A DNA stretch of 39,285 nucleotides from the NCBI GenBank assembly GCA_012837735.1, contig DUQP01000065.1:1-39285 (forward strand), given 5' to 3'. The stretch comes from Bacillota bacterium. Lineage in GTDB: Bacteria; Bacillota; Sulfobacillia; UBA3575; DUQP01. The position numbers and the translations under genes were made by a program. The notes under the pieces are model-generated. The model worked only from the letters and a program-made list of their open reading frames with translations. It did no database searches and was not told where the DNA came from. The stretch's first letter is position 1, and each line of letters opens with the position of its first letter. This document shows, piece by piece, positions 5,705 to 23,202 of this stretch.

Positions 5705-7486
5705 TCATTTGTTTCCCGGGAAAAACATCGCCTCCATGAATGCTTGGTTGAAGTCGGCCCGCGTTGCCAGCTCCACATGCTTCGCCCGGGCGGCCAGCAG
5801 TTCGGCGCGCCGCCGCTCAGTGAGTGAGCAAAGAGCCACCTGTGCGCCCACACCGGCGGCGTTCCCAATCCCGCGTAAAGCAGGGATATCCGGCACCAGT
5901 CCAATCGCCCGCGCACTGTCCTGGTGAAAGTTGTTCCCCAAAGCTCCGGCCAACAGCACCTCATCCGGTGCCTCTATGCCAGCCATGCCCAGCAAAACCG
6001 CAATGCCGGCGGAAATCGCCCCTTTCGCCAACTGAACCTGACGCACGTCCTTTTGGGTCAGCCGTACGTCCCCCACAATCGTGAACTGATTTCCCTCCGG
6101 GCTGCTGAGGATGTGTGGCCGTACCGCGGCCGGCACCTCATCCGGCCCCAAAAGGCGGCCGCTGGCATCAAGCGCTCCGATCTCCAACAACATGGCGATC
6201 GCATCCACCAGTCCGGAGCCACATAAACCGGTCGGCGGTCCCTGGCCGATCACGCTGTAGCGTAGGCCACCATCTTCCCAACGCAGATGGTCGATGGCAC
6301 CAGCGTCCGCGCGCATCCCGCATGAGATTTGGCCGCCCTCAAATGCCGGCCCGGCCGCTGTCGAGCAGGCAAAGAAACGATCACCGGCTGCCAGCACGAT
6401 TTCTCCATTTGTGCCAAGATCAACCAGCAATTTCGTCCCCGGTCGGATGTCCAACTCGGCCGCCAACATCGCCCCTACAGTGTCGGCCCCCACAAAACCA
6501 GCAATATTAGGCAGGAAGGTGACCTGCGCTTGCGGATACACCTGCAGATCGACCTCACTGGCCGGTGCCGTTAGACTACGCTGCCAAGCAGCCACATAGG
6601 GAGCTTGCGCCAAGTAGTATGGGTCAATCCCAAAAAAAAGGTGATGCATGCAGGTATTGCCCACCATCACCACATCAACTATCTCCGTACGATCTATGCC
6701 GGCCTGTTCGGCCAGATGGCCGATCAGCTGGTTGACCGCTTTTTGAGCGGCTTTCGTCAATTGCGCCAGGCCGTCCTGCTCTTGTTGCGCATAATAGATC
6801 CGGCCGATCACATCAGCAGCATACATGGACTGCGGGTTGAGCACCCCGCTGGTGGCCAGGCACACACCGTTCGTCAGGTCCCACAAATATCCGGCCACGG
6901 TGGTGGTGCCCAGGTCAACCGCCACGCCGTATGTTTTTTGTCCCAGGTCCGCAGCGATTTCCCATAGATGACCATATCCCGTCAAGACCGATATCGGTCC
7001 CTGGCGAATCCGCCCGGGCAAAGATTGCAAAATAGGCAGGGGTATGGCCAGTTGCTGTCCTAAAGCCTCCTCAAGCCGCGTACCATCTGCCCGTGCTTCA
7101 GTGAGACTGGCCGGGGGCACAGCAATGGTCTGCCAACGGCTGGCTGGTTCCAAAGCCACCGGGCGCCCTTGGCCCTCCAGCAGGATATTTCCCACCCGCC
7201 TGGACGCCAAATGTACTTCCACCGGCTCCGGCCCCAAAACGCGTGTCAGACAGGCCAGGCGGCGCTCGTCGGCCATATGTTCTAGCAGTGCCAATTCCCC
7301 GGGGTCCGGCTCGCTGACGGGCCCCACCACCCGCACCTGGCATTTACCACAGGTGCCCTGCCCCCCGCACAAACCGGGGAATATCTCCACACCAGCCAGG
7401 CGGGCGGCCTCCAGAATGCTTGTCCCGGCAGCCACCGCCACCTCTTGACCACCAGGCAGGAATCTGACCTGCACCAATCTCCCCAC
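5705..7486 (-). CDS. ASKHA-domain reductive activator of corrinoid proteins (2Fe-2S ferredoxin + DUF4445)
   Basis: The 593-residue product starts with a plant-type 2Fe-2S ferredoxin domain (Cys40, Cys46, Cys49 and Cys79). A linker follows, then an ASKHA ATPase-fold region with YGVAVDLGTTTVAGYL, VMVGNTCMHHLFFG, LLVDLGTNGEIVL, a STAAGPAFEGG loop and GLCGSGLVDAI. This architecture is that of RACo/RamQ-like activators (COG3894), which use ATP and an iron-sulfur cluster to re-reduce Co(II) corrinoid methyl carriers to Co(I). It probably acts in the cytoplasm on a corrinoid methyltransferase partner, but no methyltransferase or corrinoid protein is in the window. It sits 3 bases after the DUF1638 gene. 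The start is a GTG; internal TTG/GTG codons at residues 4-5 are alternatives. Confidence 0.9.
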   Translation of the reverse strand: MGRLVQVRFLPGGQEVAVAAGTSILEAARLAGVEIFPGLCGGQGTCGKCQVRVVGPVSEPDPGELALLEHMADERRLACLTRVLGPEPVEVHLASRRVGNILLEGQGRPVALEPASRWQTIAVPPASLTEARADGTRLEEALGQQLAIPLPILQSLPGRIRQGPISVLTGYGHLWEIAADLGQKTYGVAVDLGTTTVAGYLWDLTNGVCLATSGVLNPQSMYAADVIGRIYYAQQEQDGLAQLTKAAQKAVNQLIGHLAEQAGIDRTEIVDVVMVGNTCMHHLFFGIDPYYLAQAPYVAAWQRSLTAPASEVDLQVYPQAQVTFLPNIAGFVGADTVGAMLAAELDIRPGTKLLVDLGTNGEIVLAAGDRFFACSTAAGPAFEGGQISCGMRADAGAIDHLRWEDGGLRYSVIGQGPPTGLCGSGLVDAIAMLLEIGALDASGRLLGPDEVPAAVRPHILSSPEGNQFTIVGDVRLTQKDVRQVQLAKGAISAGIAVLLGMAGIEAPDEVLLAGALGNNFHQDSARAIGLVPDIPALRGIGNAAGVGAQVALCSLTERRRAELLAARAKHVELATRADFNQAFMEAMFFPGNK

Positions 7487-15018: not shown

Positions 15019-15696
15019 TCAGCGTGCCATGGGGATGGCCCCATTGGGCAGCAAACCGCCCAACAAACCATCCTTCTGGCCCCACATCCAATACACGTCA
15101 GGCACATCGCCCACGATCACCATGGAACTGAGGGGAATGCGGGTCCGCACAGGAAACTCCTTGCTCATCAAAGGCACGACCACCTTCAGGCGCGCTTCCA
15201 CCAGTAAGAAAATCGTATGCTTGATTTGGTTGATGCCGGCATCGGTGATGGTGTCTTCCACAGCCACTGTCACAGTACCGAGCGGATAAACGGTAGTGGG
15301 CAGCTTGGGACCATAGGCGGCAAAGAATCGGGCCCCGAGCGCCTGCCCCAAGGGAATCGCCAAGCGGCGCCCCTCCATGCTGGCCAGCTCCATTTGGACG
15401 GCCCCGACCGCTTGCGTAACCAGAGTGTCGATCCGGGCATAATCTGCTTGCACATAGGACACGCGCCCATCTGCCGTGCAACCAATTTTCATCAGATCCG
15501 TGTAGGCGATGTTGCCACCGATCTGCCGCTCAATCGCGCGATAGATGGCCTCCACACCTGTGATGCGCGCTTCATACTCCGCCATGGCGAGCAAAGCCGG
15601 TGTCAAGCTCACCTCCGCAATGATGAAACCGCAAACGGTAATCGCCAATATCACTATCAGCCAGCGCAATGCCTTCCCTGGGCGGCGCCCCCGCAC
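15019..15696 (-). CDS. yunB: Sporulation protein YunB
   Basis: The 225-residue product has one N-terminal membrane segment (about residues 11-30) and an extracytoplasmic domain. The domain contains the YunB pattern: AIERQI near residue 55, then LGTVTVAVEDTITDAGINQIKHTI split by a short gap, RTRIPLSSMVIVGDVPDVY and a GAIP ending. YunB is a mother-cell sporulation protein of unclear molecular action. The start is a GTG with a GGGGGGAAG SD. It sits between tyrS and the M67 gene on the same strand, with a 73-base gap to tyrS. Confidence 0.88.
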   Translation of the reverse strand: MRGRRPGKALRWLIVILAITVCGFIIAEVSLTPALLAMAEYEARITGVEAIYRAIERQIGGNIAYTDLMKIGCTADGRVSYVQADYARIDTLVTQAVGAVQMELASMEGRRLAIPLGQALGARFFAAYGPKLPTTVYPLGTVTVAVEDTITDAGINQIKHTIFLLVEARLKVVVPLMSKEFPVRTRIPLSSMVIVGDVPDVYWMWGQKDGLLGGLLPNGAIPMAR

Positions 15697-15769: not shown

Positions 15770-16993
15770 TCAGCGTCGGAGCGCAATGCGCACAATCCGC
15801 CGCTTGCCAACCCTGATCACAAGACCATCTTCCAGCTCCAGTTCGGCATCGGGATCGCTGATCCGCTCCTCCCCCACCCGCACGGCACCCTGCTTGATCA
15901 TGCGCTTGGCCTCGCTGTTGCTGCTCACCAGACCGGTCTGCACCAACAAACTGACTGCGCGCAGGCGCTGGGCTGAGATTTCCACCTGGGGGATTTCCTC
16001 GGGCAGACCGCCCTGGCGGAAAACGGCAATGAACTCCTGCTCGGCCTTTTTGGCGGCTGGCCATCCATGGTAGAGCGCGACGAGTTCGCGGGCTAGCCGC
16101 ATCTTGACATCACGCGGATGGGCAGTCCCATCCCTCAACCCAGCTCGCAGCGCGGTGATTTCCTCGACCGCCAGGTCAGTGGTCAGCTCAAAATATGGGA
16201 GCATCATTTCATCGCTGATCGACATCACTTTGCCGTAAATCTCCCCGGGCGCCTCATCGATGCCGATGTAGTTGTTTAGGCTTTTGCTCATTTTCTGGAC
16301 CCCGTCGGTGCCCACCAACAAGGGCATCATCAGGGCGACCTGTGGTTGCTGGCCATATTCCCGCTGCAGATCCCGGGCCACCAGAAAATTGAACTTCTGA
16401 TCTGTCCCGCCCAGCTCCACATCGGCCTCAACCGCGACGGAATCATAGCCTTGTGCCAATGGATACAGCAACTCATGGATGCTGATTGGTAGGCCGTCCT
16501 TTAACCTGGTTTTGAAATCCTCCCGCTCCAGCATCCGCGCCACCGTGTATTTGGCAGACAAGTGGATTACATCCACGAAGTTCAGCGGCGCCAACCAGGA
16601 GCTGTTGAATACGAGCCGCGTCCTGGCGGGATCCAGGATCTTGAATATTTGTTCCTGGTATGTGCGGGCGTTTTCCTGCACCTCTGTCTCCGTCAGTTGG
16701 CGGCGGGTCTCGGAACGGCCGCTGGGGTCACCGATCCGGCCAGTGAAATCGCCGATAATGAAGATCACCTCATGTCCCAAATCTTGAAATTGCTTCAATT
16801 TGCGGATCGGCACGGTGTGGCCGAGGTGAATATCGGGAGCGGTCGGATCAGCCCCATACTTGACCCGCAGCGGTCGCTTTTCACGCACCGATAGCTGCAG
16901 TTTCTGGAGCAATTCCTCCTCCGACACGATCTCGGCTGTACCTCTTTGCAATTCTTTTAACTGCTGTTCTGGCGGCAACCATTTTCCGGTCAT
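15770..16993 (-). CDS. tyrS: Tyrosyl-tRNA synthetase
   Basis: The product is a class I synthetase with the HIGH-type signature [29 protein letters not shown], the tyrosine/tRNA region [17 protein letters not shown] and [12 protein letters not shown]-terminal S4 RNA-binding domain (about the last 65 residues) follows. The ATG at 16993 has AAGGGAG with a 9-base spacer, better than the ATG at 17020, giving 407 residues. No T-box elements (no T-box core, no terminator) were found in its 150-base leader, unlike pheS and thrS. It reads divergently from the penicillin-binding protein gene. Confidence 0.95.
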
Positions 16994-17175
16994 CTGGGTG
17001 ATCTCCCTTCTTGCACTCATTACCTTACCATTAGGAACAATTTTATCCCTTTGTTCGTCATCCTGCTAACGCCATCCCAAAAAGCCTTCCGTCAGTTCCG
17101 GCACAAATACTCCGCCGGGGACGAAAGGCAGACTGAAACTACTCCCCCATCAGGCGGGGACTGGACTTTTCAGGT

Positions 17176-17420: not shown

Positions 17421-19991
17421 ATGAGTGCCACTAAACGCAAGGGCAAACTCAACACCTGGCGAGTCGTATTGCTAGTCGGGTTGTTGTGCTGTTTTGTCGG
17501 GGTCGGGACAGCAGCCGGCTTTGTAGCCGGGGTTGTAAAAGACCTGCCGGCGGTCAGTGAACTTGACCCTGCCAAGCAACAAATGGAGACATCCTTTATC
17601 CTCAACGAAGACGGCAGTCAGGTTGTAGCGCGCTTGCACGGGGAGGAAAACCGCGTCCTGATCGACATCGACGAGCTCCCAGAGCACCTCTTGAATGCCT
17701 TCATCGCCATTGAGGATAAACATTTTTGGTCCCATCCGGGAATTGATGTGACAGGCATTATCCGCGCCACCTTCAAAATCCTGACCGGTGGGGGTCTGCA
17801 GAGCGGCAGCACCATCACCCAGCAGCTGGCCAAAGAAGCGTTTTTGACCCAGGAGCAGACCATCCGCCGGAAAGTGGCGGACATGATTCTGGCAATCCAG
17901 TTGGAGCGGCGTTATACCAAGAAGGAGATCCTGGAGTTCTACCTCAATCAAATCTACCTGGGGCCAGGCGTGAATGGTGTGGAAACGGCCTCCCAATATT
18001 ACTTCGGCAAGAGTGCCCGCGATGTTTCCTTCAGTGAGGCTGCCCTGCTGGCTGGCCTGACGCAAAACCCGGGCCGTTACTCGCCTTTTAACAATCCGGA
18101 AGCAGCGACCAATCGGCGCAACTATGTTTTGACGCGCATGGAAGAGCTGGAAATGATCAGCCCCCAAGAAGCGGAAGCAGCCCGCCAGGAGGGCTTAAAC
18201 CTGAACAAAGAGGGACTAGCAAGTCGCTACCAAGCCCCATACTTCGTGGATTACGTATTGGAGCAACTTTTGGACCGCTATGGCAAGGACTTGGTTTATG
18301 GCGGCGGTTTGAGGGTCTTTACCAGCATTGATCTGGACATCCAACAAGCAGCTGAGGCAGCGGTAGCCAAACACCTGAACGCCGCCTATCCTCTCACCGC
18401 AGAAAAAGCGCAGCCAGAAATGGCCGTGGTCGTGCTCGACCACCGCACAGGACATATCAAGGCCATGGTCGGAGGCCGCGAGCATAAGCGGATGTTATCC
18501 CATAACCGCGCTGTACATTCTCTGCGGCAACCTGGCTCTGCTTTCAAACCGATTGCCGTGTATGCGCCGGCCCTGGACCTGGGCTATACAGCCGCCAGTG
18601 TGATCGACGACTACCCCACCACTTATGTGGTGGCAGGCGGAAGCCAAACTTGGACCCCGCGCAACTACGATAACACCTACCGCGGCCTGATCACAACCCG
18701 TGAGGCTGTGGAAGGTTCCGTGAACGTAGTGGCCGTCAAGCTGCTTGACATGATTGGCATCCGCACCGGCCTGCAATATGCAGAGAAATTTGGCATCAAC
18801 AGCATGGTGGCCACTGGCCCGCAAAGTGACTTTGGCCTAGCCTTGGCCCTAGGCGGCCTGACAAAGGGCGTCTCGGTCCTGGAACTGACGAGCGCTTTCG
18901 GTGTGTTCCCCAATCAGGGCATCCGGGTGGAGCCAGTCGCCATTTTGCGGGTGGTAGACAAGGATGGCAATGTCTTGGAAGACAACACCACTGCCCGTAA
19001 GGAAGTGGTATTAAAGCCCGAGGTAGCGTATTTGATGACAAGCATCTTGGAAAGCACCGTCAAAAACGGTACCGGCCGCGGAGCGGATTTCGGCTACCCA
19101 GCCGGCGGTAAGACGGGCACGACCAGTGACTGCGTGGATGCCTGGTTTGTCGGCTTCACACCCCACTTAGTAGCCGGGATCTGGATGGGCTATGACCAGC
19201 CGCAAGCCATGGTTAATCCCCTGACAGGTGGGCCAGTGTGGGGTTCTTCATTTTGTGTGCCGGTCTGGCGGGAAATCATGGCCAATGCCCATGCCAATTT
19301 GCCGGTCCAGCAGTTCCCGCAGGCAAACAATATCGTGACATTACCAGTTTGCACCAAGTCTGGCAAACTGCCATCATCTTGCTGTCCACCGGAGCAAATC
19401 AGGACTGAAGTCTTCATCCGCGGCACCGAACCGACCACCGAGTGTGAAACGCACCTGCGCGCCTGGGTCTGTTCCGAAACTGGGGAACTGGCCACTGCCA
19501 GGTGTCCGGCACCGATGGAAAAGGTGTTCATCCAACGGGAGGTGCCTTGGGTACCGATCACAGATCACCGCGGGGTGGCGGTAAAACCGTTGGACGCTGT
19601 TCAAGAGCTCCCGGTGATCACGTGTGCCACCCACCAGCACTCCGTCCCTGTGATCAGGGACGATGATGACGATGACCGAGACCACCACGGCCCCACCCAG
19701 CCCAGCGGGCCCAAGCCTACGGACAACGCGCAGGTGGTGGTGGATGGCAATAACGTTTTGCCGGACCACATTGTGGCCAGAGCCAACCACCGCCTCACCA
19801 TCCAGGTGACAGCCCATGTGGCGCACCGCCTGCTGATACCGGATTTTGACATTGACCGGTCGATTCGGGCTGGTACACTGGCCACGGTCCGATTCACCCC
19901 GGATAAAGTCGGGACTTTCCCCTTCCAGATCCTCATTAGTGATGAAGACGGCGAAAAGACCATCAGCGGGGTCCTGGAAATAAAAAAATAA
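17421..19991 (+). CDS. Class A penicillin-binding protein (PBP1A type) with C-terminal cupredoxin-like domain
   Basis: The 856-residue product makes and cross-links peptidoglycan at the outer face of the membrane. In order: a basic N-terminus and membrane segment (residues 14-38); a GT51 glycosyltransferase domain (about 55-230, catalytic Glu98 in AIEDKHFWSH, QSGSTITQQLAKEAF); and a transpeptidase domain (about 300-620) with Ser373 in GSAFK, SVN at 433-435 and KTGT at 564. A Cys-rich segment (643-735) follows, with seven cysteines in pairs around SGKLPSSCCP and SETGELATARC. Then an Asp-rich/Pro linker (745-766) and a last domain (770-856) ending with VRFTPDKVGTFPFQILIS. That last domain looks like a cupredoxin fold, but the copper Cys is replaced by Gln836. 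The start is fixed by an upstream in-frame stop. Confidence 0.92.
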   Translation: MSATKRKGKLNTWRVVLLVGLLCCFVGVGTAAGFVAGVVKDLPAVSELDPAKQQMETSFILNEDGSQVVARLHGEENRVLIDIDELPEHLLNAFIAIEDKHFWSHPGIDVTGIIRATFKILTGGGLQSGSTITQQLAKEAFLTQEQTIRRKVADMILAIQLERRYTKKEILEFYLNQIYLGPGVNGVETASQYYFGKSARDVSFSEAALLAGLTQNPGRYSPFNNPEAATNRRNYVLTRMEELEMISPQEAEAARQEGLNLNKEGLASRYQAPYFVDYVLEQLLDRYGKDLVYGGGLRVFTSIDLDIQQAAEAAVAKHLNAAYPLTAEKAQPEMAVVVLDHRTGHIKAMVGGREHKRMLSHNRAVHSLRQPGSAFKPIAVYAPALDLGYTAASVIDDYPTTYVVAGGSQTWTPRNYDNTYRGLITTREAVEGSVNVVAVKLLDMIGIRTGLQYAEKFGINSMVATGPQSDFGLALALGGLTKGVSVLELTSAFGVFPNQGIRVEPVAILRVVDKDGNVLEDNTTARKEVVLKPEVAYLMTSILESTVKNGTGRGADFGYPAGGKTGTTSDCVDAWFVGFTPHLVAGIWMGYDQPQAMVNPLTGGPVWGSSFCVPVWREIMANAHANLPVQQFPQANNIVTLPVCTKSGKLPSSCCPPEQIRTEVFIRGTEPTTECETHLRAWVCSETGELATARCPAPMEKVFIQREVPWVPITDHRGVAVKPLDAVQELPVITCATHQHSVPVIRDDDDDDRDHHGPTQPSGPKPTDNAQVVVDGNNVLPDHIVARANHRLTIQVTAHVAHRLLIPDFDIDRSIRAGTLATVRFTPDKVGTFPFQILISDEDGEKTISGVLEIKK

Positions 19992-19997
19992 CGGACA

Positions 19998-20026
19998 GGG
20001 GCTGACACCAGGTCAGCCCCTTTTTT
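19998..20026 (+). terminator. Rho-independent terminator after the penicillin-binding protein gene
   Basis: A perfect 9-bp stem GGGGCTGAC / GTCAGCCCC is followed by TTTTTT. It lies 6 bases after the stop codon and directly before the SD of the next small gene. Confidence 0.9.
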
Positions 20027-20197: not shown

Positions 20198-20260
20198 ACC
20201 GGAACAAAATCATGCTGCCTGCGTCTAATACAAAAAAGCCAGTTGAAGGGAGTCTGGGCA

Positions 20261-20773
20261 ATGATCAGGGTCAGAACCATGCAAGCGCTCCTAGTCGGGG
20301 TTTGTTTAATCGCACTTTGCTCAGGGATTGCCGCCGCAGGAGGCAAACTGCCGGTACCCGCCCCCGACCGGCCGGTGAATCATGATGGCGGTGACCCTTC
20401 CCTGAATGAGGAAGTGCGCCAAAAACAACAGGAAATCGATCAGTATCTGTTCGTGGACCATGCCCGAGAAATCGCTGGTTTTCAAGTGACCCACACGGCA
20501 CCGCAGGCAGACTATGTTGAGATTGGGATTACTCCGTTCAGCGTGGAAAACGCTGCTTATCTTTATGACATATTTGGTCATGATATGGTGCTGGTCGTGG
20601 CCGGACGGCAGGCGGAATTACTCAGCCCAGCCACAGCCTATAATGATGTGGAGATTGATGCGGTGGCACAGGCCGGCGTGTCACCGGCCTGGTATGCCCT
20701 GGGGGTTTTCGTGCTCATCGGCGGGTTCATTGTTCTGCGGTGGAAGCGAGCGATTAAAAACACGCTTTTGTAA
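20261..20773 (+). CDS. Secreted, C-terminally membrane-anchored protein of unknown function
   Basis: From ATG 20261 (AAGGGAG 8 bases upstream) the product is 170 residues. It has a signal peptide (hydrophobic 8-25, likely cut after SGIAAA) and a Pro-rich segment. The soluble domain has an EIAGFQVTHTAP motif, then YVEIGITPFSVENAAYLYDIFG and VLVVAGRQAELL. A single C-terminal membrane segment (about 143-161) precedes a basic tail. The layout suggests a domain held on the outer face of the membrane. I do not recognise the family. It follows the penicillin-binding protein and the 52-residue protein on the same strand, so an envelope role is a guess from context. A TTG six codons upstream is a weaker start. 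Confidence 0.8.
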   Translation: MIRVRTMQALLVGVCLIALCSGIAAAGGKLPVPAPDRPVNHDGGDPSLNEEVRQKQQEIDQYLFVDHAREIAGFQVTHTAPQADYVEIGITPFSVENAAYLYDIFGHDMVLVVAGRQAELLSPATAYNDVEIDAVAQAGVSPAWYALGVFVLIGGFIVLRWKRAIKNTLL

Positions 20774-20844: not shown

Positions 20845-23202
20845 TCACTCCAGTTCCACCACTGTCACCCCATGGTCCCCCTCCTGGGGCGGCGCCAGGT
20901 GAAACGCCTTCACGCGCGGGTGTTCCCGGAGCACCTCTGCCACCACCCGACGCAACGTGCCGGTTCCTTTCCCATGTACGATCCGCACCTGCCGCAAGCC
21001 CGCCACACAGGCGGCATCCAGGTATTTGTCCAGGAGCGGCAACGCGTCTGCCACCCGCATGCCCCGCAGGTGCACTTCCGTCTCCACTCTGTCCGACACC
21101 AGCGTTGGCCGGGGGCCGCTATCTTTGACCTCTGTGATCTCGTCTTCTGCGCCTGGTCGCAGATCCGACAATGGTACCACCACCCGCATGATTCCGACCT
21201 GGACAGGCACTTTGCCATCGCCACCGGGTTTGTCAAGGGCATGGCCCGCTTTGCGCAGGCTCACCACATACACCGGTTGGCCCGGTCGCAGGTCAGTTAA
21301 AGGCTGTTCCGTTGAGCGGGGTTGCCGGGCCCGCACCCGGTCGGCAAGTTCGGAAGTGGTTTTTTCCAGGTCTTGCTTCAGCTTCTGGGCACGGCGGTCC
21401 AATTCACTGCGATCATGGGCTGTGCGCAGTTCCCTAATCAGGTCCTCACTTTGCCGGCGCACGCGTTGCAGAATGCTGAGCGCCTCTTCCTGGGCGTTTT
21501 CGATGATCTGGCGCTCCCGTGCCTGCAGATCTGCCAACTGCTTCTCATAGCGCTGGCGCAGGATGGCAGCATCTCGGGCATCTTGTTCGGCTTGCCGCCG
21601 TTCTCCCGCAGCCTGCACCTTGTCATCGGCGATCCGGGACAAAAGCCCTTCCACCTCGCCCTGCCGGCGGGGCAACAACTTCTTGGCACGATCGACCAGG
21701 TTTCCAGGCAAACCTAAGCGAGCAGCGATTTGCAGGGCATTACTGCGGCCGGGCAGACCGATCAGGAGCCGGTATGTGGGTTGGAGCGTTTCCAGGTCAA
21801 ACTCCACAGCAGCATTTTCCACCCGTTCCCTGGTATAGGCGAAGGTTTTCAGCTCGCTGTAGTGGGTGGTGGCGATCGTCCGCGCTCCTTGTTCCTGCAG
21901 ATACTCCAGTATGGAGCGGGCCAATACCGCGCCTTCGGAGGGTTCAGTACCCGCCCCTAATTCATCCAACAACACCAGATGCGGTCCTTGCGTCTGCTTC
22001 AGATTCGACAAAATCTTGACGATCTGGGTCATATGTGACGAGAAGGTGCTCAGGCTCTGTTCAATGCTTTGCTCATCGCCGATGTCACAGAACACCCCGC
22101 CGAAAAACCCCACTGCCGTGCCAGGTTGGGCTGGCAGGTGCAGTCCGGTCTGATGCATGAGCAAAAACAGACCGACCATCTTCAGGGTCACCGTTTTGCC
22201 GCCCGTGTTCGGTCCGGTGATCACCAATGTGTCAAAATCGTAACCAATATGCACATCTACCGGGACAGCTTCATTTTGGAGCAGCGGATGGCGACCGGCC
22301 AGCACGCGCATTTGCCCGGGTTGGGCCGGCGCCGGCCGGCAGGCGTCCATCTGCAGGCTGAGGCGGGCGCGGGCCTGGATCACATCCAGTTCGGCTAGGA
22401 TGTTTAACATGCGGGTCAATTCCTCTGCCACCCCGGCCACCACTGCCGAGAGTTGGCGCAGGATGCGTTCCACCTCATGGTGTTCGGCAGCCTGAGCGCG
22501 GCGCAGTTCGTTGCCCATTTCCACCACCGCCAGCGGTTCCATAAACAATGTGGCTCCGCTGGCGGATTGGTCGTGCACCAGGCCTTGGACCTGGTTGCGG
22601 TATTCCTGCTTCACCGGCACCACATAACGATCCGCCCTGATGGTGATCAAAGGCTCTTGCAGGTAATGCTGAAATGAGGGGGAACGAATCAAATTCTCTA
22701 ATTTGCTGCGCATGCGGCTTTGCAGTGTCAAGGCACGCTGCCGCAAACGGGCCAGTTCCGGGCTGGCATCATCCCGCACCTCGCCCTGATCATCGATCGC
22801 CCGGTTGATATGCCTGGCCACGGGCTCAGGTACCGGCAATTCATGCGCCAGACCGCTCAACAAGGGCAAATCCTCTCGCCCGGTCAAGGTGCGCCGCACG
22901 CGGGCGGCGGCTGCAATCGTCCCCGCCACCGCCAAAAGTTCGCTCCCCGCTAAAGCACCACCGCGGGCAGCACGCCGGATGGATTCCCGGTAGTCCCGCA
23001 CACCGCCCAGGGATACGGATTCCGCCCTATCCAGCAAGGTGCGCGCCTGATCGGTTTCGCTTTGCCAACGGGCGATCTGATCAGGATCAGTGCTGGGGCG
23101 CAAAGCGCCAGCACATTCTGCCCCTACACTGGTCTCCGCCTGTTGCGCCAGCATGGCGATGATTTTGTCATATTCCAGATTGCGCAATGTCCGCTCGTCC
23201 AT
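20845..23202 (-). CDS. mutS2: Endonuclease MutS2
   Basis: The 785-residue product has the MutS-family ATPase: Walker A GPNTGGKTVTLKM, the GDEQSIEQSLSTFSSHM segment, Walker B HLVLLDELGAGTEPSEGA and TTHYSELK. A long coiled-coil linker (about 515-620, Glu/Arg-rich) and a C-terminal Smr nuclease domain (about 708-785) follow, the latter with HLRGMRVADAL and IVHGKGTGTLR. It lacks the MutS mismatch-recognition domain. MutS2 proteins act in recombination control and, in Bacillus, in rescue of collided ribosomes. The ATG at 23202 lies just after a hairpin that spans the stop of the upstream ogt gene. Confidence 0.96.
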   Translation of the reverse strand: MDERTLRNLEYDKIIAMLAQQAETSVGAECAGALRPSTDPDQIARWQSETDQARTLLDRAESVSLGGVRDYRESIRRAARGGALAGSELLAVAGTIAAAARVRRTLTGREDLPLLSGLAHELPVPEPVARHINRAIDDQGEVRDDASPELARLRQRALTLQSRMRSKLENLIRSPSFQHYLQEPLITIRADRYVVPVKQEYRNQVQGLVHDQSASGATLFMEPLAVVEMGNELRRAQAAEHHEVERILRQLSAVVAGVAEELTRMLNILAELDVIQARARLSLQMDACRPAPAQPGQMRVLAGRHPLLQNEAVPVDVHIGYDFDTLVITGPNTGGKTVTLKMVGLFLLMHQTGLHLPAQPGTAVGFFGGVFCDIGDEQSIEQSLSTFSSHMTQIVKILSNLKQTQGPHLVLLDELGAGTEPSEGAVLARSILEYLQEQGARTIATTHYSELKTFAYTRERVENAAVEFDLETLQPTYRLLIGLPGRSNALQIAARLGLPGNLVDRAKKLLPRRQGEVEGLLSRIADDKVQAAGERRQAEQDARDAAILRQRYEKQLADLQARERQIIENAQEEALSILQRVRRQSEDLIRELRTAHDRSELDRRAQKLKQDLEKTTSELADRVRARQPRSTEQPLTDLRPGQPVYVVSLRKAGHALDKPGGDGKVPVQVGIMRVVVPLSDLRPGAEDEITEVKDSGPRPTLVSDRVETEVHLRGMRVADALPLLDKYLDAACVAGLRQVRIVHGKGTGTLRRVVAEVLREHPRVKAFHLAPPQEGDHGVTVVELE

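Follow-up and report, generated by a model that had tools for sequence, protein, structure and literature searches.

The window, by which we mean the whole 39,285-nucleotide stretch of DNA analysed here, carries a gene (pbp) for a class A penicillin-binding protein (PBP), with a divergent tyrS upstream and a convergent mutS2 downstream (Table 1). By its domain matches the product is a member of the PBP1A family (603 bits against a TIGR02074 cut-off of 509) with GT51 and transpeptidase domains in one chain, and its enzymatic activity is predicted. The catalytic part is followed by a Cys-rich segment, an Asp/Pro-rich linker and a terminal domain; the initial annotation of this DNA had described such a linker joining the last domain to a Cys-rich segment, and both were found in that arrangement. 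The Cys residues of the segment stand at positions 644, 654, 655, 675, 684, 695 and 735. By motif counts, many cupredoxin-free PBP1A proteins of the phylum have such repeat units too; the two units could be disulfide or zinc sites. When the whole PBP tail was modelled, confidence was moderate to low over the Cys-rich part and high over the final domain, with a disordered linker between them. Between pbp and mutS2 lies a small ORF (20243-20773, + strand) in which a signal-like N-terminus and a C-terminal membrane segment are discerned by eye, and for which NCBIfam gave no match.

Table 1. Features of the pbp locus, in coordinates of the window
Feature	Position	Strand	Details and evidence
tyrS, divergent upstream neighbour of pbp	15770..17020	-	TIGR00234; synteny
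Class A penicillin-binding protein, PBP1A family (pbp)	17421..19991	+	856 aa including the cupredoxin tail; ORF, PF00912, PF00905, TIGR02074
Transglycosylase (GT51) domain	17619..18140	+	residues 67-240; Pfam PF00912, E 9.6e-65, 217.8 bits
Transpeptidase domain	18420..19163	+	residues 334-581; Pfam PF00905, E 1.5e-30, 106.9 bits
Cys-rich tail	19350..19634	+	residues 644-738; two C-x9..10-C ... C-x2-H units; sequence, motif counts
Asp/Pro-rich linker	19635..19718	+	residues 739-766; predicted disordered, pLDDT <50 in tail model
Copper-less cupredoxin domain	19719..19988	+	residues 767-856; Pfam, AlphaFold, Foldseek against PDB, family profile against PDB
Codon of His802, sole retained copper-ligand position (first His)	19824..19826	+	alignment with copper-type relatives
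Former copper loop	19929..19964	+	residues 837-848; Cys to Ile837, Cys to Asp841, His to Glu845, Met to Ile848; alignment with L080 (G525)
Terminator-like inverted repeat ggggctgac / gtcagcccc and T run	19998..20026	+	just past the PBP stop; sequence only
mutS2, convergent downstream neighbour of pbp	20845..23202	-	TIGR01069; synteny

The assignment of the last 90 or so residues of the protein to a cupredoxin domain is well supported. Pfam Cupredoxin_1 (PF13473) scores 27.4 bits (E 3.6e-6, cut-off 27) on the tail domain alone and 22.7 bits, under the cut-off, in the whole protein. An AlphaFold model of residues 759-856, made with a two-row input alignment, reached a pLDDT of 87.4 and consists of nine strands, being all beta save for a 3-residue helical turn. 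With this predicted domain the best 50 Foldseek matches in the PDB were all cupredoxins (best E 1.5e-6, query TM-score up to 0.76), and they include CupA, a Cupredoxin_1 protein of Bacillus anthracis, CuA domains, nitrosocyanin, FtrB and NosZ. A single-sequence search of the PDB gave weak matches, topped by nitrosocyanin and CupA; a profile from 37 related PBP tails matched CuA domains of the PDB with an E-value of 3e-18, and 36 of these 37 relatives' domains matched Cupredoxin_1 independently (E up to 0.01). A cupredoxin fold for the last 87 or so residues had been proposed from the letters alone, from AHRLLIPDFDID beginning at residue 801 and VRFTPDKVGTFPFQ at 823-836. Both segments are present as claimed, and the structure prediction, the fold search and the profile search of the isolated domain all bear the proposal out.

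The initial annotation had also named what would speak against it, namely a predicted structure other than a Greek-key barrel or a better match to an Ig-like, PASTA or fibronectin domain, and both points were settled in its favour. A few relatives' domains give single weak Pfam matches to Big_9, fn3_5 and Ig models, and inspection of L033 by eye hints at FN3-like tails elsewhere among the PBP1A proteins of the phylum. However, no Ig, PASTA or FN3 fold was among the best 50 Foldseek matches of the window domain, and these matches, with the Cupredoxin_1 and CuA profile results, make an Ig-like, PASTA or FN3-type tail exceedingly improbable; within the limits of prediction, the fold search refutes that identity.

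To read the ligand positions, 59 fused cupredoxin domains were aligned with 44 stand-alone ones. Among the CuA-type positions (His, Cys, Cys, His and Met) the window protein keeps the first and has the other four replaced (Table 1), within a copper loop of identical length: YCYVACGPGHDKM in the intact relative G525 versus QILISDEDGEKTI in the window. With His802 as its only ligand, the domain has neither a CuA site (His, two Cys as C-x3-C, His and Met) nor a type 1 (blue) copper site (His, Cys, His with or without Met), as it is devoid of Cys and, as had been noticed earlier, no His follows His802. The former Cys position had been assigned to Gln836, which is one residue off, since the relatives with a copper Cys align it to Ile837. 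Loss of the copper site from the window domain is thus well supported, and the domain is presumably free of metal. The original proposal of a fold kept and a metal lost stands for the window, where a cupredoxin fold is predicted and four of five ligands are replaced, but the loss is specific to certain lineages and some relatives still appear to have a copper site.

Far from being an isolated case, the fusion recurs across the whole class. The survey of other class A PBPs that had been proposed for the same tail found it in 59 PBPs from 54 of the 154 genomes of the host's class, belonging to 25 families; this count is a lower bound, with profile matches followed up by frame length. The class was searched with a profile from four domains and then with one from 37, and a class member with a weak 12-bit match in its PBP (G008) was left out of the count. 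Among 398 genomes sampled across the phylum, cupredoxins were found in other members and the PBP fusion only in the host's class, a part of the profile matches outside the class having been retrieved for checking as PBPs. Even at very loose thresholds, the cupredoxin profile matched none of 27 PBPs taken outside the class and, within it, left most of the unfused PBPs unmatched. Two doubtful large-frame matches outside the class (L218 and L219) proved not to be PBPs, and outside frames of about 600-660 aa with a cupredoxin match look like nitrous-oxide reductase. Two genomes of family f170 (G458 and G459) carry three different PBP-cupredoxin paralogues each (L105, L110, L111, L113, L116, L181). 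Among class relatives that have no such tail, the closest (L005, G281:C29:20903-23176) has an in-frame TGA inside the matched PBP stretch.

As read from the alignment, the fused domains show a graded decay of the copper site, from CuA sets to no Cys. The domain of G525 (L080:749-1024) has the complete CuA ligand set and that of G404 (L084:3016-3297) keeps all ligands except Met, replaced by His; no gap is needed to align either with the CuA domain of Thermus, and the fusion gene of G404 is broken upstream by an assembly gap. The PBPs of these two genomes are candidate copper-carrying cell-wall synthases. In G431 both Cys are present and the second His is gone, and in G454 one Cys is left. A Cys followed by His, often as Cys-x-x-His, is found in f148, f150, f151, f155, f168, f169 and most of f173; f7 and f179 have Ser or Ala at both Cys positions; and no Cys remains at the site in f1 (the family of the window), f142, f3, f5, f10, f159-f162 and f170-f172. 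The Cys is kept in 21 of 59 fused domains (38 lack it) versus 41 of 44 stand-alone ones (Fisher p 9e-10, on rows that are phylogenetically non-independent), and the fused domains keep the first His more often than the Cys (43 of 59). The full and nearly full CuA sets, the partial ones of G431 and G454 and the bias between stand-alone and fused domains strongly indicate a copper-binding ancestor of the tail, a cupredoxin of CuA-like or type-1-like kind. Two stand-alone cupredoxins of f155 (L076 and L097) are also without the usual copper Cys (YTIRNDVDCG), in genomes with a Cys-x-x-His PBP fusion.

How the fusion arose may be read in two ways, and an early gain with losses fits its distribution as well as several gains do. 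On the tree of PBP cores a single clade of all fusions is rejected (AU test, p 0.00014), and the domain tree sets f7, f177, f156, f179, f149 and f167, which lie nearer the CuA and NosZ domains, apart from a larger group; both results favour independent acquisition of the tail, lineage by lineage, from stand-alone copper proteins. Against this, the fusions cluster strongly on the core tree (6 changes versus 30 in shuffles), its backbone is weakly supported, the domain tree comprises 92 columns, and early gain followed by several losses is equally fitting. We give independent acquisition a chance somewhat short of even; it is compatible with the function favoured below.

Pairwise dN/dS values for the copper-less domains were 0.17-0.39 in f7, 0.16-0.26 in f5 and 0.12-0.30 in f170, and about 0.16-0.21 in f10, where the pairs are more diverged and the divergence is usable. 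The catalytic cores of the same f7, f5, f10 and f170 pairs gave about 0.09-0.28. Higher domain values were obtained for f172 (0.45) and a pair from f179 (0.56), and one copper-type pair of f155 is near neutral (0.95). By these ratios, the copper-less domains are under purifying selection in several families, which suggests that such domains can be functional in these relatives of the window protein. Between the window and G526, its nearest relative and a member of the same order, identity is 32% for the domain and 62% for the core, with a domain dN/dS of 0.71 at an uncertain dS. Such fast divergence makes relaxed constraint or partial decay possible in the lineage of the window.

The gene neighbourhood is shared with the PBPs of class relatives: mutS2 adjoins the fused PBP in the seven relatives examined, and tyrS lies on the other side in some. 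By the conservation of this order, the window PBP is the housekeeping orthologue. No copper genes were recognised in the tyrS-pbp-mutS2 neighbourhood of the relatives, where a minority of the unmatched neighbours were profile-searched. The host genome (1.55 Mb in 67 contigs, 94.9% complete) encodes on another contig (C32) a second class A PBP without a cupredoxin. It gave no match for a heme-copper oxidase, none for Cupredoxin_1 besides the window PBP, and one copper-type P-type ATPase over the cut-off. A simple rule linking copper-site loss to a copper-free lifestyle was rejected: across the class, genomes with and without heme-copper oxidase (COX1) did not differ in Cys retention (Fisher p 0.24), a comparison with too few independent pairs for a test on the tree. 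Elsewhere in the window, an AcsV-like corrinoid activation protein that scores below its cut-off (5708-7486, - strand) and a YunB-type sporulation protein (15022-15696, - strand) suggest an anaerobic, possibly acetogenic organism of a spore-forming lineage.

What the tail now does can be approached from its history. We think it probable that it is a former copper cupredoxin that kept its fold, lost copper binding and serves as a metal-free extracellular module for binding or scaffolding. The cupredoxin forms the C-terminus of the PBP1A orthologue linked to tyrS and mutS2, and its copper site has been lost in the lineage of the window. The flexible Asp/Pro linker would hold the domain outside the membrane, beyond the transpeptidase domain, where it may bind a partner protein or a cell-wall component and so position or stabilise the synthase. 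The initial annotation had likewise suggested an envelope-binding module. This role is suggested by analogy with the copper-less FtsP/SufI of Escherichia coli, a multicopper-oxidase-like protein of the septal ring for which a scaffold function has been proposed (PMC2661564).

It is unlikely, in our opinion, that the domain is merely a vestige, left without a role and slowly decaying after the loss of an ancestral copper centre that had sensed or buffered copper or put wall synthesis under redox control. The divergence from G526 and the graded decay of the site across families would both be expected of a vestige, but prediction still recovers the fold with high confidence, copper-less domains are under purifying selection in several other families, and the ORF of the window is intact to its stop. 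A rearranged site still holding copper, zinc or another metal, made of His802, His799 and the acidic residues Asp841, Glu842, Asp843 and Glu845, seems to us decidedly improbable. His802 is kept, the first His outlasts the Cys among the fused domains, the soft ligands of the loop are replaced by acidic residues and the linker is rich in His and Asp. However, no Cys, Met or second His is left in the site, and the first His is kept also in relatives with Ser or Ala at both Cys positions, which fits a structural role. Returning to the metal-free module, its ancestry allows a more tentative proposal, about which we have considerable doubt: that the PBPs of the class originally carried a working copper centre that made wall synthesis responsive to the copper or redox state of the envelope, the window protein then belonging to one among several lineages that lost the metal and afterwards put the domain to a new use. 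The CuA set of G525, that of G404 with His for Met, and the Cys-x-x-His of several families point to such a centre.

Both parts of the protein are of known kinds. Its transglycosylase and transpeptidase domains and the Cys-rich tail repeats are those of the PBP1A family (TIGR02074) of Bacillota, whose sampled members outside the class have no cupredoxin tail, unlike the window PBP. The terminal domain shares its fold, the FTP-x-x-x-G-x-F motif and the loop length with Cupredoxin_1/CuA proteins (cytochrome c oxidase subunit II, nitrous-oxide reductase), CupA and nitrosocyanin, and two relatives share the full or nearly full ligand set of CuA domains; it differs from these proteins in its four replaced ligand positions and its fusion to a cell-wall synthase. 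The likeness to FtsP/SufI, which is by description, lies in a copper-less cupredoxin fold within the cell-division machinery, but FtsP/SufI is a three-domain soluble periplasmic protein outside any PBP chain. A non-exhaustive search of the open-access literature found no paper on PBPs and cupredoxins besides that on FtsP/SufI and unrelated mentions. Consequently, the fusion and its series of copper sites appear to be undescribed.

Class A PBPs rank among the major synthases of the cell wall and are targets of antibiotics, yet few of their additional C-terminal domains have a known role. With the class-wide series, from apparently intact CuA sites to copper-less domains under selection, one can ask if wall synthesis was ever under the control of copper or redox state, and how the fold of an electron carrier turns into a plain binding module. 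It suggests a shared history of cell-wall synthesis and copper domains.
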